Below, in pieces: positions 7,130 through 24,230 of a stretch of 51,140 nucleotides of DNA. The stretch is taken from assembly GCA_903945435.1 (NCBI GenBank), contig CAJAVM010000024.1, forward strand, positions 1-51,140, written 5' to 3'. The notes under the pieces are model-generated. The model made no database searches. It worked only from the letters and a program-made list of their open reading frames with translations, and had not been told where the DNA came from. A program made the translations under genes and the position numbers. This DNA is from an uncultured bacterium. GTDB lineage: Bacteria > Patescibacteriota > Patescibacteriia > Patescibacteriales > UBA12465. Each line of letters begins with the position of its first letter. Position 1 is the stretch's first letter.

Positions 7130-8683
7130 TTACTCAACTTTGGCTTTAGCTTTTTTTACTCCCAAAAGCCACATCTTGTTATCTAGCCATGAGCCTAAAA
7201 CAAGAATAGACAAAACACGAGTTATAACAATCGCACTAAATAATGAGACCGAGACGCCGATAAATAAAGTGGTACCGAAACCTTGAACTGAAGAGGTCCC
7301 GAAGAACATTAAAATTAAACAAGTAATAAGGGTAGAAATATTTCCGTCTCTAATTGAAGGCCAAGCACGTTTAAAACCATCTACGATGGATTGATTAACA
7401 GACTTACCTTGTTTAAGCTCTTCTTTAGTACGAGCAAAAATTAAGATATTAGCATCAACAGCAATCCCAAAAGATAAAATTAAACCAGCAATACCGGATA
7501 AAGAAAGGGTAACTGGCTTCAAGGCATAGAAAAATAATAAAATACCAATTACCGCAAATAACAAAGCGAGCGAGCTACTAAATATTTTTATTTCATTAAA
7601 AGTATAGAATATTAAAGCAATCATCACAAAAATAATTGGTAAAGCAACAGCAACTGGGATTGCCTTAAAGATAGCTAACATTGTTAAGCCATAAACCATT
7701 AAAGAAATAACGGAAAGTAAACCAGGTAGGCGATACATGACAATCATGAAGATTGAAACCAAAAGTAAACCAATAAATCCGGCCTGTAAACTATTTTCAA
7801 TTGATTTAGAGCCTAAACTAGCCTCAACAGTTTTTTGAGAAACTAAAGTAACTGGAACTGGTAAAGCACCTGAGTTTAAACGTTTAACTAACAGCTTAGC
7901 TTCATCAATATTAAACTGACCAGAAATAACAGCCTTGCCTCCAGTAATTTTTTCATTAACGGTTGGAGCGCTAATTACATAACCATCCAAAAAGATGGCT
8001 ACTGGCCGGCCAACATTACGAGCGGTGATATCTTCAAACATTTTTGAACCTTCAGTATTGAATTCTAAAGAAACCTCAGGAGTTCCATCATTTGGGTTAA
8101 ATTCTAAAATAGCTCTCTTTAAATATTTTCCGGTTAACTCTGTATTCTGCCAAAGGTTGGCAGCGTTAACGTCAATTTGAGTAGTACTGGCGGTAGCGAA
8201 TTGAGCGGCGGCGGCATTTTGTTCTTTAAATTCCAAAATAGGAGTTTCACCAATCATTTGAATAGCTTCTTTTACATCTTTAACTCCGGCGAGTTCTGCA
8301 ATAATACGGTATTCGCCATTACTGCCTTTATTAACTTGAACATTAGGTTCACTAACACCAAAAGCATTAACACGACGCTCGATAACGTCACGAGCAGACT
8401 CCATTGCTCCCGCACGGTCAGCCTCAGGGATATTAGCAACATTAGCCTCATACACCAACTGAGTCCCTCCCTGCAGGTCTAAGCCTAAACTAAAAGGTAA
8501 TTCCTTTACAATTGGGAGAATAATGATGTTATTAGTCTTAGCAGCAATAAAACGAGCGGCATTATTATAATAATTACTGCCAGCTACTACAGCAACTGTA
8601 ATGGTAAATACAATAATTAGGCCCAAAATCAATCGAGTCTTAGCCTTAAAAGACAACTTAGAAATTTTTTGTAAAACTGACAT
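7130..8683 (-). CDS. secD: Protein translocase subunit SecD
   Basis: Larger subunit of the SecDF complex (517 aa). An N-terminal TM helix (about 15-35) is followed by the family motif LGLDLQGGTQLVYEA, the P1 periplasmic domain (about 75-285), and then five TM helices in the C-terminal half with the conserved segment FGIAVDANILIFARTKEE (about 407-424) and the nearby GFKRAW. It is the first gene of a secD-secF unit. A weak TTGATT-17-TAAGAT promoter and a small GC-rich hairpin lie in its upstream region. Given the large exported proteins encoded next door, it is likely a heavily used part of the export route. Confidence 0.96.
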   Translation of the reverse strand: MSVLQKISKLSFKAKTRLILGLIIVFTITVAVVAGSNYYNNAARFIAAKTNNIIILPIVKELPFSLGLDLQGGTQLVYEANVANIPEADRAGAMESARDVIERRVNAFGVSEPNVQVNKGSNGEYRIIAELAGVKDVKEAIQMIGETPILEFKEQNAAAAQFATASTTQIDVNAANLWQNTELTGKYLKRAILEFNPNDGTPEVSLEFNTEGSKMFEDITARNVGRPVAIFLDGYVISAPTVNEKITGGKAVISGQFNIDEAKLLVKRLNSGALPVPVTLVSQKTVEASLGSKSIENSLQAGFIGLLLVSIFMIVMYRLPGLLSVISLMVYGLTMLAIFKAIPVAVALPIIFVMIALIFYTFNEIKIFSSSLALLFAVIGILLFFYALKPVTLSLSGIAGLILSFGIAVDANILIFARTKEELKQGKSVNQSIVDGFKRAWPSIRDGNISTLITCLILMFFGTSSVQGFGTTLFIGVSVSLFSAIVITRVLSILVLGSWLDNKMWLLGVKKAKAKVE

Positions 8684-8701
8684 ATTGGATTAAAGAATAG
8701 A

Positions 8702-8718
8702 GCCAGAGATGACCCTGG
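8702..8718 (-). promoter_or_regulatory. Hairpin in the secD leader
   Basis: GCCAG and CTGGC pair around an 8-base loop about 20 bases upstream of the secD ATG. No T-tract follows at once, so it looks more like a leader structure than a terminator. Its function is unknown. Confidence 0.35.
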
Positions 8719-8751
8719 CAAATGTTAGTAAATTAACTCAAACTTGCCTTT

Positions 8752-8780
8752 ATCTTAAGATAAGTAAAAATAAAAATCAA
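8752..8780 (-). promoter_or_regulatory. Putative secD promoter
   Basis: Minus-strand TTGATT (8775-8780), 17-base spacer, TAAGAT (8752-8757). The -10 is a modest match (4 of 6). It would give a leader of about 60 bases containing the hairpin at 8702-8718. Confidence 0.4.
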
Positions 8781-8800
8781 GCCTTAACCAAATCTAGGTA

Positions 8801-8829
8801 TTTACAAAAAGGCCAATTTTATTTATAAT
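8801..8829 (+). promoter_or_regulatory. clpP promoter
   Basis: TTTACA (8801-8806), 17-base spacer and perfect TATAAT (8824-8829) on the + strand. Transcription would start near 8836, about 60 bases before clpP. Confidence 0.7.
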
Positions 8830-8849
8830 AACTCTATTAAATTAAAAAA

Positions 8850-8881
8850 GTGGCCAAAAAACATAAAAAGAGCCAGGCCAC
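8850..8881 (+). promoter_or_regulatory. Hairpin in the clpP leader
   Basis: GTGGCC (8850-8855) and GGCCAC (8876-8881) are exact inverted repeats around a 20-base A-rich loop, lying inside the predicted 5' leader 14 bases before the clpP ATG. It could be an RNA hairpin or, as DNA, an operator for a dimeric regulator. I recognise no known operator. Confidence 0.4.
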
Positions 8882-8895
8882 ATAATCCAATATAT

Positions 8896-9474
8896 ATGCC
8901 ATTAATACCAACAGTTATTGAAAAAGAGGGGCAAGTAGAAAGAGCTTATGATATATACTCTCGTCTTTTAAAGGATAGAATTATATTTTTAGGCGAACCA
9001 ATAGATGACCATACCGCTAATATCATAATTGCTCAACTATTGTTTTTAGACGCCCAAGATAAAGATAAGGACATTAAGTTCTATATTAATTCCCCCGGAG
9101 GTTCGGTAAGTGCTGGCTTAGCAATCTATGACACGATGCAATTTGTAAAATCTGATGTTTCAACTATTTGTGTCGGACTAGCCGCGTCGATGGCTTCAGT
9201 TTTGCTCGCTGCTGGCGCGCCAGGAAAAAGATTTGCTCTACCAAATAGCGAAGTTATGATTCATCAAGTAATGGGTGGGGCTGAGGGACAGGCTTCAGAC
9301 ATAAAAATTAGAGCAGAACATATTCTAAAAACAAAAGTAAAAATGAATAAAATTCTAGCTTTCCACACTAAACAAAAGGAGTCAGTCATTGAAAAAGATA
9401 GTGACAGAGACTATTTTATGAGCGCTGATGAAGCCCAAAAATATGGGATTATTGATAAAGTAATTCGCAAATAA
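8896..9474 (+). CDS. clpP: ATP-dependent Clp protease proteolytic subunit ClpP
   Basis: Serine peptidase that forms the 14-subunit chamber working with ClpX or ClpA-type unfoldases. At 192 aa it has normal length. The catalytic triad is visible: Ser98 in GLAASMAS, His123 in EVMIHQ and Asp172 in [10 protein letters not shown]. The IGF/hydrophobic-pocket region and the handle helix (about 130-160) are intact. The N-terminus [10 protein letters not shown] is typical of the processed form with little propeptide. No SD precedes the ATG. It is a single-gene unit with its own promoter and a bidirectional terminator; no clpX or tig lies beside it. Confidence 0.98.
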
Positions 9475-9483
9475 TAAAAATAC

Positions 9484-9522
9484 AAAAAAGACTCCTAACG
9501 TAAGTTTAAAGGAGTCTTTTTT
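9484..9522. terminator. Bidirectional terminator between clpP and the surface-gene run
   Basis: A 13-bp stem (AAAAAAGACTCCT / AGGAGTCTTTTTT) around a 13-base loop has Ts at the end in both directions. It serves clpP on the + strand and the last gene of the surface run (9541-10566) on the minus strand. Confidence 0.9.
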
Positions 9523-9540
9523 AATATCAAAAATTTAATT

Positions 9541-10566
9541 TTAATTTAATTTGAAAGAGTTGATAAGAATTTGAAAAACATTAGGATAAACTAAACGCTC
9601 AGAATTAGCAGAAATATAAGAAACAATATAAATGTTCTCCCTATCTTTACCGGTTAAATAAAAATTTAAACCATCAGCTCCCATTACGCCCTCCCAACCG
9701 TCAAGGTTCCTTAAACGATCATTAGTAACAATTTCTCCTGGAAAAGTTTCCTCATACCAAGCTACAATACTCTTAATTTTTGGATTATCGGAAACTGAAA
9801 TTTGAATCAAAGAATCATCAGGAGCAGAGATAGTTGTTGTATATTCATTATTCAAAGTTTTAAGACCCCAAGAAGCGGGATAATAAAGTTCGTATTTACC
9901 AACCTTATTATTATACTTAGTCATCAAGCTATTCGGATATAAAGACTTATTAGTCGCCAACGGACTATAACCATTTTTTAATTCCGCTAAATCGAGATAG
10001 CCATCGTTATCGGTATCACTAGACGACATCATGGTTCCAAAAATTAATTCTTCTTCATCATTTAACCCATCGCTATCAGTATCGACTAATAATGGTAAAT
10101 CCATAACTTCTTCACCATAAGCAGATTCAGTTGATGATGAAGTTAATGGGGTAGTTGTTCCAATTTCTACATCTACAACACTCGGGTTAGTTTCCACGAC
10201 AACAGTCGTAGTAGGAGTTTTATTTATATTGGAATCGTCTTCTTTCTGTATTTTAGAAGATGTACTCTCTACGACCGAAGCAATAGGTGCACCAGGATTA
10301 ACCCTAGGTTTAATAATAAAATAATAACTTAAATAAATAAGAGTCCCAATAAAAATAATACCCAAACCTACAATCAATCCCCCAACCATTTTAAAATTAT
10401 TTTTTTTACCAGTAGATGATAAAAACTGAGAACCAGCAACAGACTTGGCGGCTGGCGCCATCTCCGCTCGCGTACGATTAGGCATATTATGCACAATCAA
10501 ATCTTGATTCACTTGTGCGACAACGGCCTCATCAATATTTATTTTTTTACCAGTTTTTCCTAACAT
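9541..10566 (-). CDS. Single-pass membrane protein with Ca-binding-type (TSP3-like) repeats
   Basis: A 341-aa protein of unknown function. A cytoplasmic N-terminal tail (1-60) is followed by one TM segment (about 62-88), a Thr/Ser/Val-rich linker, then two Asp-rich motifs of the DxDxDGLxDxEE type (DTDSDGLNDEEE and DTDNDGYLDLAE, about 160-200) that match thrombospondin type 3/EF-hand-like calcium sites. The C-terminal 130 residues (from YNNKVGKYELYYPASWG) form a globular domain that resembles PsbP/Mog1-type folds by pattern only. It shares this plan with the gene at 10790-11527. It is the last gene of the surface run, 1 base after its upstream neighbour, and ends at a terminator. Confidence 0.75.
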   Translation of the reverse strand: MLGKTGKKINIDEAVVAQVNQDLIVHNMPNRTRAEMAPAAKSVAGSQFLSSTGKKNNFKMVGGLIVGLGIIFIGTLIYLSYYFIIKPRVNPGAPIASVVESTSSKIQKEDDSNINKTPTTTVVVETNPSVVDVEIGTTTPLTSSSTESAYGEEVMDLPLLVDTDSDGLNDEEELIFGTMMSSSDTDNDGYLDLAELKNGYSPLATNKSLYPNSLMTKYNNKVGKYELYYPASWGLKTLNNEYTTTISAPDDSLIQISVSDNPKIKSIVAWYEETFPGEIVTNDRLRNLDGWEGVMGADGLNFYLTGKDRENIYIVSYISANSERLVYPNVFQILINSFKLN

Positions 10567-10567
10567 A

Positions 10568-10774
10568 TTAATTCAACACGAGAACAGCAGCAATAATAAA
10601 TAAGACTAAAATCACTCCGCCCAGAACGAACCAAAGTTTTAAGCTCTTCTCACTAGTCTTAGGCATAGAATGAACACCAATAGATAAGCGAGATAACCGA
10701 AGCCTCCCTGCTTTTGAAGCCCTAGTTTCATCAACTGACTTTTGACCAGATATTTGTTCACTACTATTTAACAT
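10568..10774 (-). CDS. Small tail-anchored membrane protein
   Basis: 68 aa from the ATG at 10774; a TTG nine bases further upstream is a less likely start. A polar, Ser/Lys/Arg-rich N-terminal tail of about 40 residues precedes one hydrophobic segment (LWFVLGGVILVLFIIAAVL) that ends one or two residues before the stop, so nothing is exposed outside the cell. The tail (SSEQISGQKSVDE) resembles the N-terminal tail of the next gene upstream (SNPASRQSVDD), which suggests that the neighbours share a cytoplasmic interaction motif. Function unknown. It sits between the two Ca-repeat anchor genes in the surface run. Confidence 0.65.
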   Translation of the reverse strand: MLNSSEQISGQKSVDETRASKAGRLRLSRLSIGVHSMPKTSEKSLKLWFVLGGVILVLFIIAAVLVLN

Positions 10775-10789
10775 ATTCAACAATTAGAT

Positions 10790-11527
10790 TTATTTAACAA
10801 TATTGCCTGGTAATTTACCGGCACCATTGGGATTATAGCCATTTCTAACCTCTTCACCATCAGAAAATTTATCACCATCAGAATCTATCATTAAAGGATT
10901 CGTTTGATAAATTTTAATTTCCTCATAATCACTCAAGCCATCATTATCAGTATCAATCAAATTAATGTTAGTTTTAGCAATCAGTTCTTCATCATCAGTA
11001 AGACCGTCGCTATCGGAATCGGTTGCTAAAATAACTGCTTCAGAAGAAGTAGCACCATTATTTTCGGCCGCACTAGTAGTCGTTGAAGTTTCACTTGCCA
11101 CAGGGGTTGTGGTTGTAAAAGCAGGCTCTTCTGTGGTTATAGGAGTAGTTGGAACTTCAACCGTAGTAGCGGCTGGCGTTTTATTTGTATTATCCGTTTT
11201 GAGGTTAGTTGCAACAACTTGCTCATTTGTATCAGCCTTAAAAAATTTACTATATGCTAAAAACCCCAACAAACCAACAATCACTACCACCATCCCAACA
11301 ACAGCTATCTTAAAACCTTTACCACCACCGACACTTTTTTCATCGTGATCAATTTCATAATCAGGAACTGAAACAGGGGAAGTTGAAGCGGCCAAACCAA
11401 CACGTCGCGTCGTTATCTCAGAACTGTTTATGTGTTTTCCTGCATCTCCAGACTGATCGGTCTCTGCAAAAATATCATCTACCGATTGACGACTAGCTGG
11501 ATTAGAATTGTTCAAAGTTTCAAACAT
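10790..11527 (-). CDS. Single-pass membrane protein with tandem Ca-binding-type repeats
   Basis: 245 aa. A cytoplasmic tail (1-72) is followed by one TM segment (about 73-95), a long Thr/Ala/Ser-rich linker (about 100-165) and three Asp-rich repeats (DSDSDGLTDDEE, DTDNDGLSDYEE, DSDGDKFSDGEE) at about 168-230, a spacing typical of thrombospondin type 3 calcium-binding repeats. It ends NGYNPNGAGKLPGN, much like the equivalent part of the 9541-10566 protein (KNGYSPLATNK). The paralogy is probably by module. It could be a calcium-stiffened stalk or a protein-protein adaptor; I cannot say which. A TATAAT lies at 11556-11561, so it may have an internal promoter within the run. Confidence 0.75.
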   Translation of the reverse strand: MFETLNNSNPASRQSVDDIFAETDQSGDAGKHINSSEITTRRVGLAASTSPVSVPDYEIDHDEKSVGGGKGFKIAVVGMVVVIVGLLGFLAYSKFFKADTNEQVVATNLKTDNTNKTPAATTVEVPTTPITTEEPAFTTTTPVASETSTTTSAAENNGATSSEAVILATDSDSDGLTDDEELIAKTNINLIDTDNDGLSDYEEIKIYQTNPLMIDSDGDKFSDGEEVRNGYNPNGAGKLPGNIVK

Positions 11528-11601: not shown

Positions 11602-11946
11602 CTATTTAACTACAGGTCTAACAGGCTGAATCATGCTAGGGTCATCAACTCGACTAGGGTCAACTACAATATCAGCATCTCTTTTGATAATTTTATAAAC
11701 TACCTCGTCAGATCCAGTGTTAGGAAAAATTTGAATTTTAGAATCAGCAGGTAATCCAAGCCTGGTCTTTTCTTCAACGTTCATAAATTCTGGCGCTAAA
11801 CTTGATTCCGGATTAGAAACATTTACTATTCCATCATTAACTGGCGATTTTTTTGTAGCTATCAAAATAAAAATTACTATAACTAAAATTGCAATTAAAG
11901 AGCCTGCTAAAATAATTATTTTCTTTTTACTTAACATATACTTCAT
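11602..11946 (-). CDS. Small single-pass membrane protein of the surface run
   Basis: 114 aa. A short positive N-terminus (MLSKKKIIILAG; the fourth codon is also an ATG and could be the true start) leads into a TM or signal-anchor segment (about 9-30), then an extracellular domain of about 80 residues with no cysteines. No lipobox is seen. The conserved-looking centre reads FMNVEEKTRLGLPADSKIQI, and the tail is Pro/Val/Asp-rich (VDPSRVDDPSMIQPV). It follows the giant Cys-rich gene by 10 bases and is probably cotranscribed with it. Function unknown; it may be a small companion of the big surface proteins. Confidence 0.65.
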   Translation of the reverse strand: MKYMLSKKKIIILAGSLIAILVIVIFILIATKKSPVNDGIVNVSNPESSLAPEFMNVEEKTRLGLPADSKIQIFPNTGSDEVVYKIIKRDADIVVDPSRVDDPSMIQPVRPVVK

Positions 11947-11956
11947 CTATTTTAAA

Positions 11957-14900
11957 TTATTGAATTAATGCGGGATTAGTGGCTCTGCAGGCTGCAGCAT
12001 TTTTAGAACCAACTAGTGAATAGGGTAGACTTCCATTCGTAAGAGAAGCACAAGAAACATGATAGCTCCCCCCTGTACAAACATAATTGGCTTCACAAGT
12101 TGAACAACTAGTACTTCCTGGATAAGTGCTATAGGTTCCTGCCGAACAAGTAGTACAGTCTCCAGAATTCGCACCGTATGTCGACGAGCGGGAGGTCCCG
12201 GCCGGACAAGGAGAAATACTACTACCACCAGTACAATAATAACCAGCATCGCAAGCATTACAACCTGTATTCCCAGTTGTAGTATTATAAGTTCCTGCCC
12301 CACACCTTGTACAACTAGAGGCGCTTGTTCCTCCAGTCGTGCTACGGTAATAACCTACCGCACAAGGGGTTAAATTCGTACCGCCAGTACAATAGTATCC
12401 AGCGTCACACTGAGCACACCCAGTATTACCAGGGGTAAGGTTATAGGTTCCAGCTAGACAAGTAGTGCATTTAATATTTCCAGTTGTAGCAGTATAAGTT
12501 CCAGCATCGCACAAAGGACAATTTCCTTGACTTATACCGGCAGTGGTTTCTCTATATGACCCAGCGGAACAACCGATTTTACTAGAACGACCAGAACAAT
12601 AATAACCAGCTTCACAAGTCTTACAAACAGAATTTCCAGTAGTATTTGTATATGTTGAAGGATCACAAACAACCGCATTAATTCCATCTGCACAATAGAA
12701 GCCCACTGGACAAGTGGCGCAGCTAGTAGTATTAATCGGGACGTAAGAACCAGACCCACAAGAAGTAGGAGGAGGAGTCGTATTTACAACACATTGAGTT
12801 CCATTACAAGTAAACCCATTAGCACAACCGCAACTACCCGTACAACCATCACCTCCGCAATAACCAGACGGACAATTTGGAGTACATGTACCTGCTCCCT
12901 CGCCAACACAAGTCCCTTGTTGGTCAACTACCCAATCACAACCGCCTTGTACCGGTGAACCCGGACAATAATATTCATCATATTGTGCACATTGAGCACC
13001 AGTATTTCCCTGCCCACCACTTTGTCTTGAATCACAATGACCAGAGGCGCCAACACAAACTTGTCCACTAGGACAATCATTAAACCAGCTATTACCACTA
13101 CTATTACACGGTGAACCGTCGGGATCAGGCGGAGTATCTATCGCAATGCAAGTCCCTTCAGAATTTATTTTTCCAGCTTTACCAGAAGTGGTCGTGCAAG
13201 AGTCGAGGTAACAGACAGCTTTTGATGACCCAGCTGAAGTGCAAAGAATTGATTCTCTGTCTGGCCAACTGTTACTATTATCTACACCACATGCGCCACC
13301 ATAACCAGGATGTAGACTAGAGGCGGGATAACCACCCGTTGCTAAATTAAAATTTGCTCGATATCCAACTGGACAACTATTTACCTGACCTCTAAATGTA
13401 CACAATGGAGAAGTGCAACTAACAACAGTGCCATTAAGAACACAAGTTCCAAAATAATTTTTGCATGGATTAATAAAACATTCACCATTATCTATTCTAA
13501 TAACCGTACAGCCATAACTAGGATTTAAGGAGCCGTTATTTTGCTCTTGCTTACATGATTTTACCGAACCAGCTGACGTATTAACTATTTGATAACTGTT
13601 ATAGGTATAGTGATCCCAATCATTAACTTCTTCATAATATGTCACACCCGGCAAAACAGCATCTCCCTCTTCAACAACCACTGAAGTGCCATTAACCGGT
13701 TCTTGCCAACATTTTTTTACGCAAGTTCCGGCAGTAGTACATTGATAACCAGGTTCACAGTTAAAGCCATTATTGCAATTGTTAGTATCAATTGGAGTTC
13801 CATCAGGAAGTACCGGAGATGTTCCAAAATAATCTGGGTCGCAATCAAATTTACAATTTTCTTTAGTTTCAAATTTAGTTTGACAATAAGTATCCCCACA
13901 ATAACCGCCACCATCTAATGGAGACTTAAACACGCAATAACTATTACCCGCCATTGGATAAGGGGTAGTAGCAATAGTATCAGTATTACAAGCATATTGC
14001 ATTGTGCGACTACTACCAGCAGCAGTGGTGGCAATATTTCCGCTACCATCACAAGATTCATAACCATCATTAAAAACTCCGCCCTTACCTTCCGTATTAG
14101 GCTCGTTAACACCATCACCACAATAAGTATTTACTTTAAGAACAAAGCTGGTGGCGTTAGGAGTTCCATATTCGTTAACAGCATTAATTTTTATTTCCTG
14201 ACCAAGATTAGCGATAGTCGTTGTTCCAGTTAAATAAATATTAGTTACATCCACTACTCCTGGCAATAAAGATATTCCTGGAACAGCAGCTGTAGTAGAA
14301 TAGGTAATACTATGATTTCCTTGTTTAGTTGAACCCAAAAGGCAGCTATAAGCATAGCCGACTCGAGATTGAGTTGCACAATCTAATTTGATCACTGGCT
14401 TGTCAACTTTAATGCGGATAACAAAATTATTAACCGCTTTACCGACTGTTAAACGATAGACACTTTCTGTATCAGCAATAAATTTAGTAGAAGTAGCAAT
14501 AATCCCCTGATAAGTAACTCTTTGGCTATTTAAACCATCAGCGGCAGAGGTTCTTGTTATTCCGGGCATCGATAGAATATCTGGCCCACTAACTAACGTT
14601 GGAAATACAGCAGAGCTTCCGGAAACATAAAAACTATAGTTAAAAGGAATTGTTGAATCTAAGCGATATGAATATTCATCAGCTTGAGCGAAAGAATTAG
14701 CTGAAGAAATTACTATTTCAGTAGTTGTAGACATGCTCGCGCCTTTACTATCAGTGATAGTAACATTAACATAATATTTACCAGCGTCTCCAGCTAAATC
14801 AGCAAATACTTTTCTCTGGTTTGCATCACTAGTCATTTTCATAACTGGCGGTGCACCCCGCCAATTAGGCCAACTGCCACTAGCTGGGGTCATAGTCCAA

Positions 14901-16057
14901 AAAATAGGATCACCCTCGCTATCACTCGCTCTTAGGAAGCCGTTATATTCACGTCCAGATACGCCCTTCATTTGTGCTTCAATAATTTTTGGAGCCGAAT
15001 TAGAAACCTGACCAGAAGCTAAAATACCAGTAGCACTAACGCACTCCTCGCTAGATGAAGGGTTGTTTGGTTCAAAACTAAATCCTAAGCTAGGATTTAA
15101 ACTATCTCGACTTTCCATTACAGCACAAAGATTATAATCCGAGCCAGAATCATTAGTAGAATAAACTAAAGCATAGCTATTTTTTGGTAGTTGTAAACTA
15201 GTATTAGTTGAATCATAAACAAACTTTTTGGTACTTTTATTCCAGCAAGTTTTTGCATCAAAGTCTGGACACATGCCAAAGCGATTAATTGGGTCAACAA
15301 ACCCTTGCTTAATAGCTAAAGCGGGCATCAAAACATCATTCCAACTAGGCCAAAGAGATGTTGTTTTTCCCGGCAAATAAGTTCCACCAGCAAGTAACGG
15401 ATAACGTCCATTAACAGACTTATATGACGCAAGTGCTTCTCTAACTTCTTCTAATTTTCCAACTCTTTTCAAATCGCGAATCACTTTTGATTTTAAACTA
15501 TCACAGAAAAAATTTGCGGGGCAATTTTCATCAACTGAACAATTTTTTATTTCCTTAAGAGCGCAAGTTGCGGTCGAAGTAGAACAAACTTGGCCAGAAA
15601 AACAATCCGTATCTTTTTCACATTTTAAAGCAGAAATTGAACAAGTTGCTGATTCTGCCGGTAAATTATCATTGAATTTCCAATGAGAAATAATTTGACC
15701 TAAAATATCAACTGTTTTGATGTTTGGGTCTTGATTATAAGAAATCAAGTAAATATTAGTATATATTTTTTTATTAGTGATATTAACATCAGCGGCATTA
15801 ACATAAACCGTGCGACCATCTCTAAGAGCTTCATAGCCATCAACTGTGAGAGCTTGCGGAGACCCCTTGAACCCTTGGCTGGCATACCAACGAGAAACAC
15901 TGTAATGGTTGGGGTTCGAAATAACACGAACACCAATAGCATCATCGTTTGTTTGAGCACTAGGAGTTTGAGCCGATACTGAAGCTAAAAAATAAACGTA
16001 GACGGCACAAGCCGCGAAAAGCGTAGCAATAATTGCTAAGCCCTTTTTCTTATTCAT
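11957..16057 (-). CDS. Giant Cys-rich secreted/surface protein with GCC2/GCC3-like repeats
   Basis: 1366 aa. A signal peptide (about 1-30, ending FLASVSAQ) is followed by a domain at about 35-140 containing SHWKFN, then a Cys cluster. Residues about 190-320 resemble the globular part of a pseudopilin (LKRVGKLEEVREALASYK, NGRYPLLAGG, later DPINRFGMCPD) but lack the hydrophobic pilin helix. The middle (about 345-640) has cadherin/Ig-like beta repeats with phrases such as ASDSEGDPI and VTITDSKG. From about 650 the protein is strongly Cys-rich, and residues about 1100-1340 hold tandem units of the type CDAGYYCTGG and CxAGTYxxTTGN, which match GCC2/GCC3 (ephrin-receptor-like) repeats. There is no C-terminal anchor. 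Probably a disulphide-stabilised adhesin or surface-fibre protein. Confidence 0.8.
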   Translation of the reverse strand: MNKKKGLAIIATLFAACAVYVYFLASVSAQTPSAQTNDDAIGVRVISNPNHYSVSRWYASQGFKGSPQALTVDGYEALRDGRTVYVNAADVNITNKKIYTNIYLISYNQDPNIKTVDILGQIISHWKFNDNLPAESATCSISALKCEKDTDCFSGQVCSTSTATCALKEIKNCSVDENCPANFFCDSLKSKVIRDLKRVGKLEEVREALASYKSVNGRYPLLAGGTYLPGKTTSLWPSWNDVLMPALAIKQGFVDPINRFGMCPDFDAKTCWNKSTKKFVYDSTNTSLQLPKNSYALVYSTNDSGSDYNLCAVMESRDSLNPSLGFSFEPNNPSSSEECVSATGILASGQVSNSAPKIIEAQMKGVSGREYNGFLRASDSEGDPIFWTMTPASGSWPNWRGAPPVMKMTSDANQRKVFADLAGDAGKYYVNVTITDSKGASMSTTTEIVISSANSFAQADEYSYRLDSTIPFNYSFYVSGSSAVFPTLVSGPDILSMPGITRTSAADGLNSQRVTYQGIIATSTKFIADTESVYRLTVGKAVNNFVIRIKVDKPVIKLDCATQSRVGYAYSCLLGSTKQGNHSITYSTTAAVPGISLLPGVVDVTNIYLTGTTTIANLGQEIKINAVNEYGTPNATSFVLKVNTYCGDGVNEPNTEGKGGVFNDGYESCDGSGNIATTAAGSSRTMQYACNTDTIATTPYPMAGNSYCVFKSPLDGGGYCGDTYCQTKFETKENCKFDCDPDYFGTSPVLPDGTPIDTNNCNNGFNCEPGYQCTTAGTCVKKCWQEPVNGTSVVVEEGDAVLPGVTYYEEVNDWDHYTYNSYQIVNTSAGSVKSCKQEQNNGSLNPSYGCTVIRIDNGECFINPCKNYFGTCVLNGTVVSCTSPLCTFRGQVNSCPVGYRANFNLATGGYPASSLHPGYGGACGVDNSNSWPDRESILCTSAGSSKAVCYLDSCTTTSGKAGKINSEGTCIAIDTPPDPDGSPCNSSGNSWFNDCPSGQVCVGASGHCDSRQSGGQGNTGAQCAQYDEYYCPGSPVQGGCDWVVDQQGTCVGEGAGTCTPNCPSGYCGGDGCTGSCGCANGFTCNGTQCVVNTTPPPTSCGSGSYVPINTTSCATCPVGFYCADGINAVVCDPSTYTNTTGNSVCKTCEAGYYCSGRSSKIGCSAGSYRETTAGISQGNCPLCDAGTYTATTGNIKCTTCLAGTYNLTPGNTGCAQCDAGYYCTGGTNLTPCAVGYYRSTTGGTSASSCTRCGAGTYNTTTGNTGCNACDAGYYCTGGSSISPCPAGTSRSSTYGANSGDCTTCSAGTYSTYPGSTSCSTCEANYVCTGGSYHVSCASLTNGSLPYSLVGSKNAAACRATNPALIQ
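12030..12757 (-). repeat. Tandem Cys-rich protein repeats (GCC2/GCC3-like)
   Basis: This part of the 1366-aa gene codes for about five degenerate units of roughly 45-50 residues with the alternation CxxCxAGYYC, PCxxGxYR, CxxCxAGTYxxTTGN. The DNA is visibly repetitive too, with recurring words for AGTY and AGYYC, so slippage or recombination could change unit number. Confidence 0.8.
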
Positions 16058-16096: not shown

Positions 16097-19000
16097 TTAT
16101 TTCGAAAAAATTACTTCAAGCGATTTAATACTTTCATTTTTATAAGTATCAAGTGCTGAAATAACGAAATAATTATTACCAAGGGTTAATTTTGATTTTT
16201 CAATAGTTGTCGAAGTCGCTTTATCATTAGTATCAAATGATTCTCCATAAAAGCCGGCTTTAGTTCCGCGATAAACTCGATAAAATAACGTATCGTCAGT
16301 ATTAGCAGTCCATGACAGTTGAATAAAAGTATTCTTATCTTCAATTTTAAATCCAAGAGGCACCATCGGTACAGCTTTATCAGTTGGAGTTACAGTTTTT
16401 TCATAGCTTAAAGAACTTTCAACAGTATTAGCCGCTACAACAGATACCCGAAAAGAATAAGACTGACCATTTTTTAAATTAGTAAAATCAATACTACAAA
16501 TATTATCAACACCAACTGTATGACAATAAGTCGCGTTATTTTGAACCTTTCGAATTAATGATAATGCCTTACCAGTTTCACCATAATATAGATTATATGA
16601 AGCCGCAGTAGGTGCAGACTTCCAAGTTATAGTAACCGCTCCACTAGTTTGTTTATCCATGGCAGTCATAATTTCTCCAGCAGAAGAGGCGGTTTCTCTA
16701 AAGAAGAAAGATTCTTTCAAAACATTCCAAATACAAACGCCATCGGGTTTTGAGTCGCCATTTTTATCTGGGCCACAAGCCTGATTAGCAGTTGGACAAA
16801 CCGAATTATCAGAACTACAAACTAAAGTATTGCTTTGACCACGAATAATTGCGTCATCAATAATCAAAGGTAAATCATCAAAAGTTCCTGGCTGGCCAGC
16901 ATCGCGACAATAATACAAAATGTAATTAAAATTAATGCAAGTACCAATTGCTCCCGCACAATTATCACTCCATGGCGCCCAAGTTCCATCCGGACTTACT
17001 GGCGGCCAAGGATTATTACAAATAAATACATATAGACTACTATCTCCAGAGAAATTATCTCCAATAGAAAAGGCATTACGACACTTGTTAGAACAGCTAG
17101 CATCAGAGCACGTGCAATTAGCATCAGGGGATGAACCAGCATCAAGGAATCTCGTCATATCGATTGTAGCCTTGAGTTTTGTGCGACCATCAGCAATCCC
17201 ATCTTTTGTAGAAATAAAAGATTTATTATTTCCTAAACCAACAATAGGATCCATACTGGCAACCGAAGGATCACTAAGACTAAACTTCCAATCCCAGAAA
17301 TAACCAGTTACTGGTTGTAAGATTTGTCTATCAGCGCTATAAGCGGCCGCTGTAAATACCTTATCTTTATCACTCTTAGTATCAAACTTTTTATTTGCAG
17401 GATCAATATCATTTTCATCTAAATCGTCATCACCAGTTTTAAATAAATAAGAAACTGGGGAAACCTTAACTTCTTTTACGGCGCAAATACCCTTGCTATT
17501 ATCTTTATCTGATAAAGTTTTAAATTGTAAAATATGGGAATTTTTGTATGACTTTGCATTAAATTGTAAAGTTTCACCTTCAACAAAATCAGCCGTAACA
17601 AAATCGCCAACTTTATCTAGCCCTAAACCATTAAACCCAACCCCGGATAAATTAATAACACCGGACTGACTATTTAATTGCTCGTCGCCCTTAATGACTA
17701 AAAAGTATTTTGCTTCAGGCGATAGAATTTTTTTAGGAGCAAACTTTAACAACGTTGTGCTTGTTCCTATATACTCGCCAGAAATATTTCCAGGGAATGA
17801 ACAATATAATTTAGTCGGATCAGGTAAATCGGCTAAAGCCTGGTTATTAAAAGTACCAAATAACTTACTAACAGAAATTTTTAATTTATTAAAAATATTT
17901 ATAAACCAGCTTGTATCTTTAGCGATAAATTTTGGTTCACCATCATAGACAAAAGTTCCGGCCGGACAAGTATTCCCGCCATAATTCATCTCTTGTAATA
18001 GAACAACATTAGAAGTAAACGAGGCTATATCCATAGCCTGATTAAATGTTACCTGTAAAACAGAGTTACGACAGATATTAGTAGCACCATTTTTTGGTAA
18101 AGAATTTGTAATCTGTGGTCTTGATTCACAACAGGCATCAAGTCCACAACCCACGTCTTTAGGATCAAGAGCACAATCACCATCCTTTACACACCCGCAA
18201 CACATTACTTTACCCGCATCAGGACCAGATGTCTCTACTTCTCCGCCCTTGCAAACCTCGGTAGTATTATCATAACAACAAGTTCCAACAGCCAAACAGC
18301 CATCTTTGTCTTTATTAAAAGCGGCACAAGTATCCTGAGGAGTATTTTTTGCGCAACCATCCGCACAAGCGAATGAATCTTTATAAAGACCAATCTTTAC
18401 AGGAGTAGTAGAGGCGCAAAGTAAAGGGTCGCCTATTGGTGGAGTAGAAGTATTAAAGCAACCAAAATATCCACAATAACCAAAATCTGGACTTAAAGGA
18501 TTATTAGAAATAGTTGTTCCAGAACCACTACGACAAACATCGTCACCAGGAGCAACGGTTTTTTTAGCATCAAAACAACAAGCCGTATTATGTTCAGAAC
18601 ACGAAGCTAGTCCTTCAAGACCGCTACAATCTGTACAAATACCATTAGGGGTTTCTGGAGTAATGCTACAGTATTGGCCAGTGTGACCAACACAATTACA
18701 AGCAGCGTCATGCTCAGCAACAGTTGTTCCCACAGTAGCACAACCACCACATCGCCCTAAATTACTATTACCAGTTTTATCTGCACCACAAGCACCATCA
18801 CAAGTTAAAGGCGCACAGCAATCTTGAGCAGCTTGATCTTTACGACAACAACAATCGCAACTCGGTTTATCAACGATAACACAACTGTCTGGCTTAGCTA
18901 TATCAATATTATCTTCACATACAGAACCCATGGGACAGGAGGGGGCGGCAACACAACGACCTTCTAAGCCAACCTTCTCACACTTTAAACTCGACTCACA

Positions 19001-21523
19001 GATATCACAGACCGAAGTCTGATCGATACAAATATTATTTAAACCTTTTTCCCAACCATTAGGACATGAAGTTGGAGTTTTAGCTTCCCAATGCTTATCT
19101 TTATTACAAGTAAGGGTTAGCTCAACCGTTTGAGCTCCTAGCTGAAAAGATTGAACTTTAGTTAAACTACATTTACCTAAATCTCCATTCTTCACACATT
19201 TATTAAGATTAGCATCGTAACTACAAATACTAGAACCAAAGCCACTACAACCAATAACGGAAGCACAAGAAAAATCACAATTTGCGACCACTCGTTTTGT
19301 TCCGCCGCTATAAGGAGAACAAACACCGGGAACGTTGGGGCAGAAAGAGCCAGTCTGACAAGTACCGGCATAAGCGGCTAAAGTTTTACAGCTTTCTTGA
19401 GAATCAGGATTATTAACAACATAGCCAGTACTAAAATCCCATTCAAAAACTGAAGTTGGAATACTAGTTAAACACTCCGCTAATTCATTAACACATCTTC
19501 CCTTTTTATAAGTATTAGCCGGACAACAAACTTGATTAGGACATTGAGTATTAGAAGTACAACTACTAACTTCAAAATTTAATTCGTTTCCCCATTCACT
19601 ATTTTTCACTACTTTTACTGGGCCAGTAATAGTGCTAGTTGGAACTGCAACTGAAATAACATCGGCTCGATTTTCTTTTTTTATTTCACCAGCAACCGAA
19701 CGCTCCGGACTAAACTGGACCAGCCCCTCTCGATTAGCCTGACCAAAATATTCACCATAAACTTTAACCGGGGTAGAAACTGCTCCCTGGTTTGGCTCAA
19801 TTTTACATAAACTAGTTTTCAAAGCCAAGGAGTCGTCTGCTTGAAAAACATTAGGGTTTAGTTTTTGAGTATCAATCGTTTTACCGCCCAAAATTATTCT
19901 AAGTAAGTGATTACCATTTTGAATATCATCAGGAACTTTAATTATAATTTGTTTATCTCCCCAAACTGAACTTGCACATACTGGAGGAAAATCATAAGAC
20001 GCTTCTAAATCTCCAAAATAGACGTGGGCACTCCCTTTAGACCAACCAAAACCATTACCAGTTATAGTTACATATTGACCCGCCTTACCTTTAGCTGGAG
20101 AAAAAGAAACAATATAAGGACCGTCATTAGGATTTGCTTCTTTAACAAACTTTAAAAAATTACTTTTTTCACTATTACCACTAATATTATTTATAACAAA
20201 ACTACCGGAATTACCAGAACGAATATTAGGAGTTGCGGCCGTACCAGACAAACCGCTTGGATGGCTAAAATTAGAATCAAACCCTTGAACATTAGCTTGA
20301 TAATTACCAAAATAAGCCTGACCAGAATATAAATTGATTCCTTGATAAGAAACCGAGGAACTTAAGGCTCCCTTATTAGGACTAATCGAACATAGTCCTG
20401 GTCGAGAAATACTATTAGAAATAAAATCAGGAATTCTTGGCCCATAATCATTGTCCGTTGTATCTTCAGCATTATCTGAGCCGATTACTTTAATAGGACC
20501 AGTAGTCACTCCACTAGGAACAGCAACAATTATTTGATCATTTTGCCAGAAATTAACACAGACTGGATTTATCTCTGAAGGATTGCGACCATTCCTATTT
20601 CCTCCCATAAAAACTACTCGGCTAGTTGAGGTTGAGTAAGCGCCAAAATTATTACCAGAAATTGTAATAAAATTATTTGGAGCACCATTAGGGGTAATTA
20701 AATTACAGGTTGTTCCGCAATCAGAATCTTGAGTACAAGATTTATTATTATTGTCTTCACAGAATCCGCCGGCAGGGCTAACATCAGTAATGACCGGAGT
20801 CCCTATACAAGTACAGGTATTAGAATCACAAGATAAAAAATTTCCACAAAGGTTGTTATCAGCATCGCAAGTTGGAGTTGAAGCATCGCTATCACAAGAA
20901 GTTCCAGCTTCTCCCTTTGGCTTACAAGTGCAATTAGTATCGCAGTAATCCCCAGCCGCACAAATTTGATCAGCCGCCTGACAGCCTCCTTGAGCACTAG
21001 AATCACAACTAGTTGGACAACTATTTCCTTCACAACCACCACAATCACCGCCAACACATCCGCCCCATGCACCACCAGAACACGCCATTGATCCACCGCA
21101 TCTGCAAGAAGCTACTTCACCGTCAGTACATAATACATTTGGGTCCGTCCCACTTATAGCACCACTCAATCTTGTGATTATAAAAGTAGCAATCGCCCAA
21201 GAAGCTAACACAATTCCCAATCCAATAACGGCGCTAGTTAATAATTTTTTAGCCTGAGAGATTTTATCTTCTTCTCCGGCTGAAGTCATCCATAGAAAAC
21301 CAGCATATATAATAAGGCCAACTGCAATTACTCCCAAAAATCCTAAGCCAACATTAATTATTCTCCCGACAATTGTCCTTGGATCATCAGCCGGCAAAGC
21401 TCCTCCCAAACCAGTATTTACTGCATCCGTTCCAAAATCTTGAGCAAATGCAAGTCGAAAAATAAAAATTCCGGCAACAACAATAAAGAAAGATAATAAA
21501 TGTTTAACAAATTTTCTATTCAC
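16097..21523 (-). CDS. Giant surface protein: T4SS-pilin-like N-terminus fused to TIG, Cys-rich, Ig-like and FN3 regions
   Basis: 1808 aa. Signal peptide 1-28 (cleavage near AFAQ). Residues 29-120 are a two-helix membrane module: GLGG motif, TM1 (about 55-78, ending YAGFLWMTSAG), polar loop EEDKISQAKK (84-93) and TM2 (about 96-117). This matches the VirB2-like pilin family common in Patescibacteria. Next come a Cys-rich stretch (about 130-240), four IPT/TIG-like domains (about 240-680, marked by ITISGNNFG and VTITGNGFG), a very Cys-rich zone (about 690-1160), a Big_5-like Ig domain (starting near RPQITNSLPKNGA), beta-rich segments, and two FN3 domains in the last 200 residues. It is paralogous to the next gene upstream at its N-terminus. 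It may be a membrane-held adhesin or pilus-tip-like protein; the activity is unknown. Confidence 0.8.
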   Translation of the reverse strand: MNRKFVKHLLSFFIVVAGIFIFRLAFAQDFGTDAVNTGLGGALPADDPRTIVGRIINVGLGFLGVIAVGLIIYAGFLWMTSAGEEDKISQAKKLLTSAVIGLGIVLASWAIATFIITRLSGAISGTDPNVLCTDGEVASCRCGGSMACSGGAWGGCVGGDCGGCEGNSCPTSCDSSAQGGCQAADQICAAGDYCDTNCTCKPKGEAGTSCDSDASTPTCDADNNLCGNFLSCDSNTCTCIGTPVITDVSPAGGFCEDNNNKSCTQDSDCGTTCNLITPNGAPNNFITISGNNFGAYSTSTSRVVFMGGNRNGRNPSEINPVCVNFWQNDQIIVAVPSGVTTGPIKVIGSDNAEDTTDNDYGPRIPDFISNSISRPGLCSISPNKGALSSSVSYQGINLYSGQAYFGNYQANVQGFDSNFSHPSGLSGTAATPNIRSGNSGSFVINNISGNSEKSNFLKFVKEANPNDGPYIVSFSPAKGKAGQYVTITGNGFGWSKGSAHVYFGDLEASYDFPPVCASSVWGDKQIIIKVPDDIQNGNHLLRIILGGKTIDTQKLNPNVFQADDSLALKTSLCKIEPNQGAVSTPVKVYGEYFGQANREGLVQFSPERSVAGEIKKENRADVISVAVPTSTITGPVKVVKNSEWGNELNFEVSSCTSNTQCPNQVCCPANTYKKGRCVNELAECLTSIPTSVFEWDFSTGYVVNNPDSQESCKTLAAYAGTCQTGSFCPNVPGVCSPYSGGTKRVVANCDFSCASVIGCSGFGSSICSYDANLNKCVKNGDLGKCSLTKVQSFQLGAQTVELTLTCNKDKHWEAKTPTSCPNGWEKGLNNICIDQTSVCDICESSLKCEKVGLEGRCVAAPSCPMGSVCEDNIDIAKPDSCVIVDKPSCDCCCRKDQAAQDCCAPLTCDGACGADKTGNSNLGRCGGCATVGTTVAEHDAACNCVGHTGQYCSITPETPNGICTDCSGLEGLASCSEHNTACCFDAKKTVAPGDDVCRSGSGTTISNNPLSPDFGYCGYFGCFNTSTPPIGDPLLCASTTPVKIGLYKDSFACADGCAKNTPQDTCAAFNKDKDGCLAVGTCCYDNTTEVCKGGEVETSGPDAGKVMCCGCVKDGDCALDPKDVGCGLDACCESRPQITNSLPKNGATNICRNSVLQVTFNQAMDIASFTSNVVLLQEMNYGGNTCPAGTFVYDGEPKFIAKDTSWFINIFNKLKISVSKLFGTFNNQALADLPDPTKLYCSFPGNISGEYIGTSTTLLKFAPKKILSPEAKYFLVIKGDEQLNSQSGVINLSGVGFNGLGLDKVGDFVTADFVEGETLQFNAKSYKNSHILQFKTLSDKDNSKGICAVKEVKVSPVSYLFKTGDDDLDENDIDPANKKFDTKSDKDKVFTAAAYSADRQILQPVTGYFWDWKFSLSDPSVASMDPIVGLGNNKSFISTKDGIADGRTKLKATIDMTRFLDAGSSPDANCTCSDASCSNKCRNAFSIGDNFSGDSSLYVFICNNPWPPVSPDGTWAPWSDNCAGAIGTCINFNYILYYCRDAGQPGTFDDLPLIIDDAIIRGQSNTLVCSSDNSVCPTANQACGPDKNGDSKPDGVCIWNVLKESFFFRETASSAGEIMTAMDKQTSGAVTITWKSAPTAASYNLYYGETGKALSLIRKVQNNATYCHTVGVDNICSIDFTNLKNGQSYSFRVSVVAANTVESSLSYEKTVTPTDKAVPMVPLGFKIEDKNTFIQLSWTANTDDTLFYRVYRGTKAGFYGESFDTNDKATSTTIEKSKLTLGNNYFVISALDTYKNESIKSLEVIFSK
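21148..21439 (-). repeat. Copy 1 of duplicated pilin-like module
   Basis: Codes for residues 29-125 of the 1808-aa protein. Protein and DNA are highly similar to 23858-24149 (both contain YAGFLWMTSAGEE and KISQAKK), while the two genes differ beyond it. This points to duplication of the 5' part followed by ectodomain divergence or exchange. Confidence 0.8.
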
Positions 21524-21554
21524 AAATTTTTATTTAATAAACCAACCAAAAAAT

Positions 21555-24230
21555 TTAATTACAATTACCATTCGACAAAGTACTGGTCGCAACACCAAAA
21601 CAGCATGATGGATTTTCGGCGGTAACATCCGAGCATCCTGGCCCAATACTAGGCTTGAAACAATTTTGATAAATATCTTTTACCCCAGACCCAACTTGAG
21701 TATTGTACGTAAATGATTCTAAAAATGGAGAATGATCAATGGTTGCAACAGTAATATCAGCCACTCCATCTAAAGGATTAGTATCTCGGTTTAGACTATC
21801 TACCCAATAACCTAGCGGGGTCGGCTCAGAACTGCGCAAATTAATAAATTTATGCTCAACAGTATTTACACCATTAGTAATAGTCTTCCCTCCGGAGCGT
21901 AAAGTATCAGACATCATTAAAGTACTAAATACAATTTCTATTGGCTCAATTAATTTAATATCAGACTGCCTATTAACCGGTAAAATAGCAGTAATCTGAG
22001 GAGGAGTAGATTCTATCTTATCGGTTACAAAAAATGAAAAACGATAATTATCTTTCTTGTCTTTATCATTTGGAAAATTATCACTATAAAAACTCAAAGG
22101 ACCATCAGCGGCCGTATCTCGATTACCATCCAAGGAGTTTAAAGCCGTATCTGTAATACCATCTAACTTTTGTAAATCAGCACTTGGATAATTACGGCTA
22201 TTTACATCCTGGCAGGACTTATATCCTAAAGCACCGGCTGTACAAGTTTTAAAAGGAGAGTAGGCAATACAATCCTGATCACTAGCACAAATCTTTAGAT
22301 TAGAAGCATTAATCTCAACCGCCAAATTACTATTTGGTGGTAAACAGTACATTTTTTCTCCGCAACCATTAATGCCACATTCGTTATCAGAGATAAATTC
22401 TACAGTCTTGTAACCACCACTTACCATAAAACGACCGTTAACATAATCTCCAACACAAACAGAAGTATCACATTTATATGAGCGGCAATCTGCATTAGTT
22501 GTACACGCAGCGCCCTTAGCTTTGCTAGTTGCTACAGCATTAACAACTTTTATGTAACTAGCTAGTTCACTTGCCGTTCCTGATAAACGTAGAGGATTAA
22601 CGGCTTCATTAAAATTAATCTTAATAATTGAATTCATTGGGTTATCCTTCTTGCCTTCAATTTTATTACTAATTTGTTTATCCGCTCCACCAGAAAACGG
22701 AGTTAAATTTAAAGCAATTTTATTACTAGCATCAAGGGTTAAGCTATTTCCACTATTTCCTCCAATCTTAGCTGTCATAACAAGTTTATTTACAAGTAAA
22801 CTAACATCTACAGCTGTATTTCCGCTTAGCTTCTCTCGAATATTTAATGCTTGAACACTAGAATTACAAACACCAGGACTAACTAAAATATTATTATTCT
22901 CTTTAGATTCAGCAAAAATATAAACATCAGAACCAACGGTTAAAGTATCAGCTAAGCGTTCTGGGATAATATCTAAAATCCAAGAATCGCCAGCAACATG
23001 GCCACTAGTTTTAATGCTGAAATAACCATCAAATACAACTTTATTAGCGTTATTAAAATCCGCTACCCCCAATAAAGAATTAGTATTACCATTGAAAAGT
23101 TGAGCCTTATTTGGAGAATCTGCCGGAACAACAATTTTAAATTTATTAATCAAGCCATGATAATCAAGAACAACTTCAGCGGCTGGCTCTACTTTTACGA
23201 CAACAGGAGAGGCATAGGTTTTAGGGCAGCCATTAACAAATATTTCGGCGGTTGCTTGTTTAGCGGGGACATTTAATCCTAAAGTATCTTTTGAATTATC
23301 TGGCTGAGGAAACAAAAAACCAGCAATGATTTGAGGAGGAGTTAAATCAATTCTAGTACTAACTTCAAACCCCCATTGTAAATCGGGGGCACTACAAGTT
23401 TTAAACATAGAAACCCCATCTGCCTTCTTTAAATCACCAGTTAATTTCACTTCATAATTAGTATTAGAATCTCCAGAGCCTAGAAAACTTAAAAAAGTTA
23501 AAACTAAAGTTTTTTTATCTAAAGAAGTAGAGACAAACACATCAGTAACGTTAGTATTTTGCGCTGGACAAGAACCAGAAGCACAGGCATCGCCTAGTTC
23601 AGTTTTAAAAATCCTAATTGATTTTGGATTAATTAAAGAACAATTAGCATTATCGCAAGTACAAGAACTACCACTAGCGTTTACGCAAACAGAATCTAAA
23701 CCAAGCGTTTCCTTGAAAGTTACAATTACAGCCGTATTTCTCGCAACGTCTTTTTGATTATTTGCAGGATAAACCGAATCAACAGTACAAGCGCCGATAG
23801 CGCCAAATCCGGAGCTAGGAATATTTTTATAAGCTGGTGGCTGAGAAACTACTCCTGTTCCATTAATTGCACCTGATAAACGAGAGAGAATAAAAGTGGC
23901 AATTGCCCAAGAAGATAAAGTTACCACTAAACCAATAACCGCGTTACGTAATATTTTTTTAGCTTGAGAAATTTTTTCTTCTTCTCCAGCTGAAGTCATC
24001 CAAAGAAAACCAGCATAAATAATTAAGCCCAAAATAATAACACCGAGTAAGCTAAGAATGATTTGAATAATACGACCAATCAACATACGAGGGTCGTCGG
24101 AAGTTAATGTTCCTCCCAAGCCAGTATTCACCGCCGCTGTTCCGAAGTCTTGTGCTAACGCAAAACTAGCTGGCAACAAAGTTGCCAACATTGAAAAAAT
24201 ACCAAGGATTAATTTATTTTTCTTCAACAT
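21555..24230 (-). CDS. Surface protein: T4SS-pilin-like N-terminus fused to Ig-like (Big_5) ectodomain
   Basis: 891 aa and the first gene of the surface run. Signal peptide 1-27 (ending FALAQ), GLGG motif, TM1 (about 53-77), loop GEEEKISQAKK, TM2 (about 95-116): the same module as in the neighbouring 1808-aa protein. The ectodomain opens with a Big_5-like unit (SVYPANNQKDVARNTAVIVTF, about 150-290), has an extended beta-rich middle with a small Cys cluster (about 575-690), and a second Big_5-like unit (ITAILPVNRQSDIKLIEPI, about 750-880). It ends in a Cys-containing tail (CSDVTAENPSCCFG). It lacks the TIG and FN3 parts of its paralogue. The stop is followed after 31 bases by the next gene, so cotranscription is likely. 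Confidence 0.8.
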   Translation of the reverse strand: MLKKNKLILGIFSMLATLLPASFALAQDFGTAAVNTGLGGTLTSDDPRMLIGRIIQIILSLLGVIILGLIIYAGFLWMTSAGEEEKISQAKKILRNAVIGLVVTLSSWAIATFILSRLSGAINGTGVVSQPPAYKNIPSSGFGAIGACTVDSVYPANNQKDVARNTAVIVTFKETLGLDSVCVNASGSSCTCDNANCSLINPKSIRIFKTELGDACASGSCPAQNTNVTDVFVSTSLDKKTLVLTFLSFLGSGDSNTNYEVKLTGDLKKADGVSMFKTCSAPDLQWGFEVSTRIDLTPPQIIAGFLFPQPDNSKDTLGLNVPAKQATAEIFVNGCPKTYASPVVVKVEPAAEVVLDYHGLINKFKIVVPADSPNKAQLFNGNTNSLLGVADFNNANKVVFDGYFSIKTSGHVAGDSWILDIIPERLADTLTVGSDVYIFAESKENNNILVSPGVCNSSVQALNIREKLSGNTAVDVSLLVNKLVMTAKIGGNSGNSLTLDASNKIALNLTPFSGGADKQISNKIEGKKDNPMNSIIKINFNEAVNPLRLSGTASELASYIKVVNAVATSKAKGAACTTNADCRSYKCDTSVCVGDYVNGRFMVSGGYKTVEFISDNECGINGCGEKMYCLPPNSNLAVEINASNLKICASDQDCIAYSPFKTCTAGALGYKSCQDVNSRNYPSADLQKLDGITDTALNSLDGNRDTAADGPLSFYSDNFPNDKDKKDNYRFSFFVTDKIESTPPQITAILPVNRQSDIKLIEPIEIVFSTLMMSDTLRSGGKTITNGVNTVEHKFINLRSSEPTPLGYWVDSLNRDTNPLDGVADITVATIDHSPFLESFTYNTQVGSGVKDIYQNCFKPSIGPGCSDVTAENPSCCFGVATSTLSNGNCN
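23858..24149 (-). repeat. Copy 2 of duplicated pilin-like module
   Basis: Codes for residues 28-124 of the 891-aa protein and is the partner of 21148-21439. The two lie about 2.7 kb apart in direct orientation, so recombination between them could fuse the two genes or delete 2.7 kb. Confidence 0.8.

Follow-up and report, generated by a model that had tools for sequence, protein, structure and literature searches.

What is the module of a T4SS pilin doing at the head of two very large proteins? This question is raised by two adjacent genes, here termed P1 and P2, in a stretch of 51,140 nucleotides on a single contig (the window) from an ultra-small bacterium of the Falkowbacteria type. P1 (891 aa, 21555-24230) is followed, after 31 nt and in the same direction, by P2 (1808 aa, GTG start, 16097-21523); all window features given here lie on the minus strand, and searches of the window for RNA families and tRNAs found none. 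A sequence-only reading of this DNA had described the two open reading frames and, in each, a signal peptide followed by a pair of hydrophobic helices that flank a GEE(D/E)KISQAKK loop; the positions, the lengths and all of these elements were recovered.

The pilin module and the ectodomains

P1 starts with a signal peptide (residues 1-26, read by eye as ending in ...SFALA ahead of Q, 24153-24230), followed by the T4SS_pilin module, a linker and an all-beta ectodomain. The hairpin of the module comprises residues 47-78 and 84-122 with the loop GEEEKISQAKK (23865-24092), as indicated by the PF18895 match, the helices of the model and a mean identity of 61% to orthologues. The Cys-containing ectodomain takes up residues 141-891 (21558-23810) and is supported by the model, by Foldseek and by a Big_5 domain at residues 147-274 (Pfam, 39.7 bits). 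In P2, a signal peptide (ending, again by eye, in ...AFA ahead of Q) and the T4SS_pilin module are followed by a Cys-rich part, a string of IPT/TIG domains, a further Cys-rich part, Big_5 and a pair of FN3 domains. Its hairpin (residues 48-80 and 85-123, loop GEEDKISQAKK, 21155-21382) is indicated by both of the pilin profiles discussed below and by the model helices. The TIG/IPT domain at residues 469-560 (19844-20119; PF01833, 32.3 bits) belongs to a string of Ig-like folds spanning about residues 240-650, Big_5 was placed by its Pfam profile at residues 1134-1190 (17954-18124), and the FN3 match at residues 1621-1700 (16424-16663) runs on into a second FN3 near the C-terminus. By Pfam, Big_5 is common to both proteins, and TIG and FN3 are confined to P2.

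The N-terminal module is homologous to T4SS pilins. PF18895 (T4SS_pilin, Pfam gathering cut-off 26.6 bits) matches P1 at 42.2 bits (residues 50-114) and P2 at 31.6 bits (residues 61-115). NF045849 of NCBIfam, which is independent of PF18895 and represents Mbov_0395, a pilin-like conjugal transfer protein of mycoplasma ICEs, matches at 39.9 bits (P2) and 39.3 bits (E 2.4e-10 and 4e-10), just under its equivalog cut-off of 40. The sequence-only reading had assigned the module to the VirB2-like/T4SS pilin family and had described it as fused to the remainder; PF18895 bears this out in both proteins, whereas the TrbC/VirB2 model PF04956 reaches about 14 bits for P1 and P2, under its cut-off of 27.9 bits. 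With 891 and 1808 aa, the two proteins lie beyond the range of short stand-alone subunits (about 100-200 aa), and it is therefore the module that is the family member, the whole proteins being fusions. The PF18895 signal exceeds what hydrophobic composition alone would give: of nine shuffles, done segment by segment so that every helix and loop retained its composition, none matched even at E<=10, setting the helices far apart from generic membrane segments of like composition and leading to the rejection of a chance hydrophobic match. The pilin-specific G/W/M/G positions are kept in both modules, in common with stand-alone pilins. The GLGG motif singled out earlier is present in P1 and P2, but it is absent from many orthologues and is no general motif. 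A PDB sequence search with the pilin module alone returned no pilin relative, only repeat artefacts.

In the AlphaFold model of P1 (44 orthologues; pLDDT 84.2, pTM 0.64), the two module helices pair as a hairpin, residues 119-139 form a disordered linker and the ectodomain is all-beta, mostly with pLDDT above 85-90. A model of P2 residues 1-720 (pLDDT 74.8) shows the same arrangement of a hairpin, then small Cys-rich parts and an Ig-like string. Conjugative pilus subunits are characterized by a three-helix fold in a lipid-bound five-start filament; these monomer models show a two-helix hairpin. The solved structures nearest to P1 in Foldseek are the S-layer proteins SbsC (E 8.7e-9), Sap and EA1 (E up to 1.8e-4); those of P2 are the IPT domains of Plexin A1 (E 1.4e-14), with a pentameric S-layer protein also among the matches. 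The TM-scores are low, about 0.1, despite the E-value obtained for P1, and the matches therefore mean a rod of Ig-like domains and nothing further. The sequence-only reading had suggested that the proteins could serve, as a tip or membrane-held scaffold, in host attachment; the predicted Ig-like and IPT folds would fit adhesion and a surface layer equally well.

Distribution and concerted evolution of the fusions

The tandem P1-P2 pair is a fixed feature of the class. The P1 ectodomain is near-universal and single-copy in the order (97/111 genomes), and in a phylum-wide sample of 380 genomes it is found in 30/33 members of the class and in 0/347 others; the P2 ectodomain is strong in 30/33 class genomes and weaker outside the class, where most matches are at the level of TIG. 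Both occur together in 62 loci. Those of the 266 relatives of P1 that carry names belong to Falkowbacteria, Buchananbacteria, Uhrbacteria and Parcubacteria. When all PF18895 genes were collected in ten relatives, nine had two fusions each, one of the size of P1 (858-924 aa) and the other of the size of P2 (1711-2226 aa), and the tenth, G057, had a P2-size fusion only. In sister orders, P2 reaches about 3,600 aa on the same plan, as in L177 (3577 aa, free of N, PF18895 46.7 bits, with TIG and Big_5). A 14,266-aa relative in G195 (L174-L176, G195:C1:501271-544029) was rejected as a gene, its frame stemming from a 40 kb N run. The class-wide conservation found on seeking the fusion in related genomes, in agreement with the sequence-only reading, also bears on the notion that a permissive model matched generic hydrophobic helices, or that one MAG was mis-assembled. 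In unrelated genomes used as controls, PF18895 does yield some weak hits at E<=1, but the shuffles gave none, and independent genomes, among them some assembled as a single contig, carry the fusion too; a single-genome artefact was thus rejected, and any explanation by chance or artefact is exceedingly improbable.

Within both proteins, the pilin module is the best conserved part. Identity of orthologues to the window proteins is 0.61 (P1) and 0.63 (P2) in the module, 0.36 and 0.30 in the signal peptides, which are likewise hydrophobic, 0.16-0.24 in the linkers and 0.41-0.50 in the ectodomains. In trees, the P1 and P2 modules cluster by genome or genus and not by gene, with exact P1/P2 cherries in 18/39 genomes, and constraining the P1 modules to one clade was rejected (dlnL -520, p-AU 0.0009). 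Modules of one genome share a mean identity of 0.65, versus 0.51 for modules of different genomes. Since the modules cluster by genome while the ectodomains form separate orthologue groups, the two modules evolve in concert. Identical module residues use the same codon at a frequency of 0.52, versus 0.43 expected from codon usage, an excess seen in 55/62 loci (Wilcoxon p 2e-10). As judged from these sequence comparisons, the pilin parts are homogenised, at least partly by gene conversion, and the ectodomains stay two families. The earlier description of the genes as duplicated paralogues thus holds for the module, which is clearly common to both; plain duplication is not borne out, and a recent whole-gene tandem duplication was rejected, as the ectodomains differ and only the modules are homogenised. 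Homogenisation fits a need for compatibility within one assembly, although adjacency by itself can also produce it. As a rule, the stand-alone array pilin takes no part in this exchange, G057 being an exception.

The operon and the T4SS genes

Most of 20 loci share the gene order relA/spoT <-> P1-P2-P3-(114 aa)-TSP3-TSP3/EF. P3 (1366 aa, 11957-16057) is a secreted Cys-rich protein with a conserved N-terminal region, DAIAVRVxPNPNHYS...VDGYEAIRDGRTVYVNAANV, and has no family above cut-off in Pfam or NCBIfam. To the eye, one of its stretches, RDLKRVGKLEEVREALASYKSVNGRYP..., looks like the C-terminal portion of a type II/IV pseudopilin, with no Pfam match. The next open reading frame, syntenic in relatives, encodes 114 aa with a single N-terminal hydrophobic segment (11602-11946). 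It is followed by two further syntenic partners, each with one hydrophobic segment: a 245-aa protein with TSP3 repeats (Ca-binding type) outside (10790-11527; PF18884, 59.1 bits) and a 341-aa protein with a TSP3/EF-hand-like stretch (9541-10566; PF18884 and EF-hand weak, under cut-off). Between these two genes lies a 68-aa open reading frame (10568-10774) that contains the stretch ...HSMPK... and a single hydrophobic segment and looks like a truncated copy of the N-terminal end of the 341-aa protein.

PF18895 matches 11 genes of the source genome (979 kb in 27 contigs, 97% complete), namely P1, P2 and nine stand-alone pilins of 131-191 aa. Six of the latter, diverse in sequence, stand in a tandem array (L012:9101-11758, minus strand), of which the first transcribed has a GLGG module of the P1/P2 type. 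Across 11 genomes, the P1/P2 module profile finds its best or nearly best match in the first array gene, at 105-127 bits versus about 35-104 for most other stand-alone pilins. Stand-alone arrays are also present in the ten relatives, along with mid-size pilin-like frames in most of them. In several relatives, proteins of 282-529 aa carry a weaker pilin-like segment (PF18895 32.6 bits in one), as at L162:8109-8957 and 9853-11442, L163:6754-7923 and 8808-9785, L164:5437-6765 and 7650-8732, and L165:7043-7969 and 7983-8855; by eye, these genes lie among apparent 2-oxoacid:ferredoxin oxidoreductase genes.

A VirB4 gene elsewhere in the genome had been proposed as a check on the T4SS connection. 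VirB4 is found in 104/111 genomes of the order; a search of the draft assembly of the source bacterium itself did not find it. RadA, the neighbour of VirB4 in relatives, is also absent there and all 15 other members of the genus have VirB4, so the two missing genes probably reflect one assembly gap, and the argument that there is no VirB4 and hence no T4SS is weakened. In one relative, PrgI lies beside VirB4 in a T4SS locus adjoining a large membrane protein. Membrane proteins of 890-954 aa lie upstream of PrgI and VirB4 at L159:1106-3970 and L161:2226-4898 and are candidates for an extended VirB6; the one in L159 has no Pfam family, and the source genome has no match to the TrbL/VirB6 Pfam. 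In the VirB4 loci that were covered in full, no pilin gene was detected, except for one of 133 aa about 7 kb from VirB4 in L161, and VirB4 and P1 are not lost together at a significant rate (Fisher p 0.21).

Possible roles and known systems

VirB2-type pilins are membrane hairpins with a cytoplasmic loop. The reading that we prefer, at a confidence falling just short of even, is that P1 and P2 are minority pilin subunits whose adhesin stalks stand on a Patescibacteria T4SS pilus or at its base, and the topology, surface exposure, co-assembly and adhesion that we infer for them would be as follows. The first ~125 residues, a true member of the Patescibacteria T4SS pilin family, would form a two-helix hairpin with its polar loop in the cytoplasm; the proteins would be exported via Sec and inserted in the membrane as pilin-adhesins, with the long C-terminal stalk extracellular. 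They would assemble together with the short array pilins, in few copies at the base or tip of the pilus, offering their Ig-like rods for contact with partner cells, and would take the place of VirB5, the separate tip adhesin, or PrgB, the wall adhesin, found in other T4SSs. The F pilus has the pilin loop lining its lumen and both termini on the outside (PMC5018250), which leaves steric room for a C-terminal stalk as long as occupancy is low; a stalk on every subunit is implausible through crowding, and few fused subunits at most would be expected. A saccharibacterium cannot grow epibiotically without the array pilins of its T4SS cluster (PMC10633639), and the genes highly expressed in Patescibacteria growing with methanogens include those of T4SS pilins (PMC10936435). 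The conserved pair, with modules evolving in step, suggests adhesins built into a secretion pilus. The fuller proposal, a T4SS pilus with covalent adhesins, in which the class makes minority pilins fused to stalks of 0.5-4 kilo-residues, kept compatible by homogenising the pilin part only, as the host-recognition device of its epibiotic machinery, is more tentative and, taken as a whole, rather doubtful.

The pilus-subunit reading is favoured by the matches to two independent T4SS pilin models that shuffles fail to reproduce, by the module being the best conserved part and pairing by genome, by the first array pilin being nearest to it, and by the prevalence of VirB4 in the order, with PrgI beside it. 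Against it stand the distance of the P1-P2 locus from virB4 and the lack of significant co-loss, neutral gene conversion between neighbours as a source of module similarity, with the array pilin mostly outside, the absence of a solved pilin among the sequence matches, and a source assembly without virB4. The main rival reading is a surface-layer or envelope stalk, in which the hairpin is co-opted purely as an anchor and P1, P2, P3 and the TSP3 proteins form a class-specific coat or cell-contact complex that acts independently of the T4SS. This is a serious possibility, if a less probable one: P1 is nearest to SbsC, Sap and EA1, an S-layer protein is among the P2 matches, the genes form one fixed operon with other surface proteins away from virB4, and near-universal single copy suits a structural protein. 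However, the S-layer likeness may reflect Ig-domain strings only, given TM-scores of about 0.1, and a mere anchor should drift like the signal peptide, whereas the module is more conserved than any other part and retains the pilin G/W/M/G positions; this speaks against such a role, if not decisively. P1 and P2 might also be linked to the T4SS and not borne on a pilus, as a membrane gate, plug or docking collar of the channel that binds the partner cell there. The same module evidence would apply, a short hairpin could dock onto VirB6 or onto pilins at the foot of the pilus, and the TSP3 membrane partners suggest a membrane complex, but the analysis found nothing that ties the two proteins physically or genomically to the virB4 locus, and we regard this arrangement as unlikely.

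The class-wide single-locus pair, in which a pilin is joined to large surface rods, is a concrete candidate for the device by which Patescibacteria recognise and hold hosts, and it bears on the role of pilins in relaxase-poor Patescibacteria T4SSs. That a T4SS pilin module tolerates very large C-terminal fusions and evolves in concert also sets limits on how pilus assembly can be modelled. Earlier work describes the pilin family, the arrays and their link to the T4SS (available portion of PMC12102498); a literature search that included this portion found no description of fusions of a pilin to giant ectodomains, although Pfam architecture pages may list such combinations.

Among known systems, SbsC, Sap and EA1 share with P1 a string of Ig-like domains on the cell surface, but have no pilin hairpin, no sequence homology and a low global TM-score. 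In extended VirB6 (PMC12857230), too, a membrane component of the T4SS has gained a large hydrophilic domain, but VirB6 is a polytopic channel protein, whereas here it is the pilin that is enlarged. The PrgB-type adhesins of Gram-positive conjugation are likewise large surface adhesins working with a monoderm T4SS; they are anchored by LPxTG and sortase and carry a polymer adhesin domain, whereas P1 and P2 would be held by the pilin hairpin, and none were detected in Patescibacteria according to PMC12102498. VirB5, at the pilus tip of Gram-negative T4SSs, resembles the proposed role of P1 and P2 as a minority tip part contacting the target cell, but is a separate protein without a pilin module, and no homology is claimed. 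Closest are the VirB2-like pilins and arrays of Patescibacteria such as Southlakia epibionticum and Nanosynbacter (PF18895; PMC12102498, PMC10633639, PMC12857230), which share the module, the family model and the kind of genome; those known pilins are short array subunits, whereas here the module heads proteins of 900-3600 residues at a separate locus.
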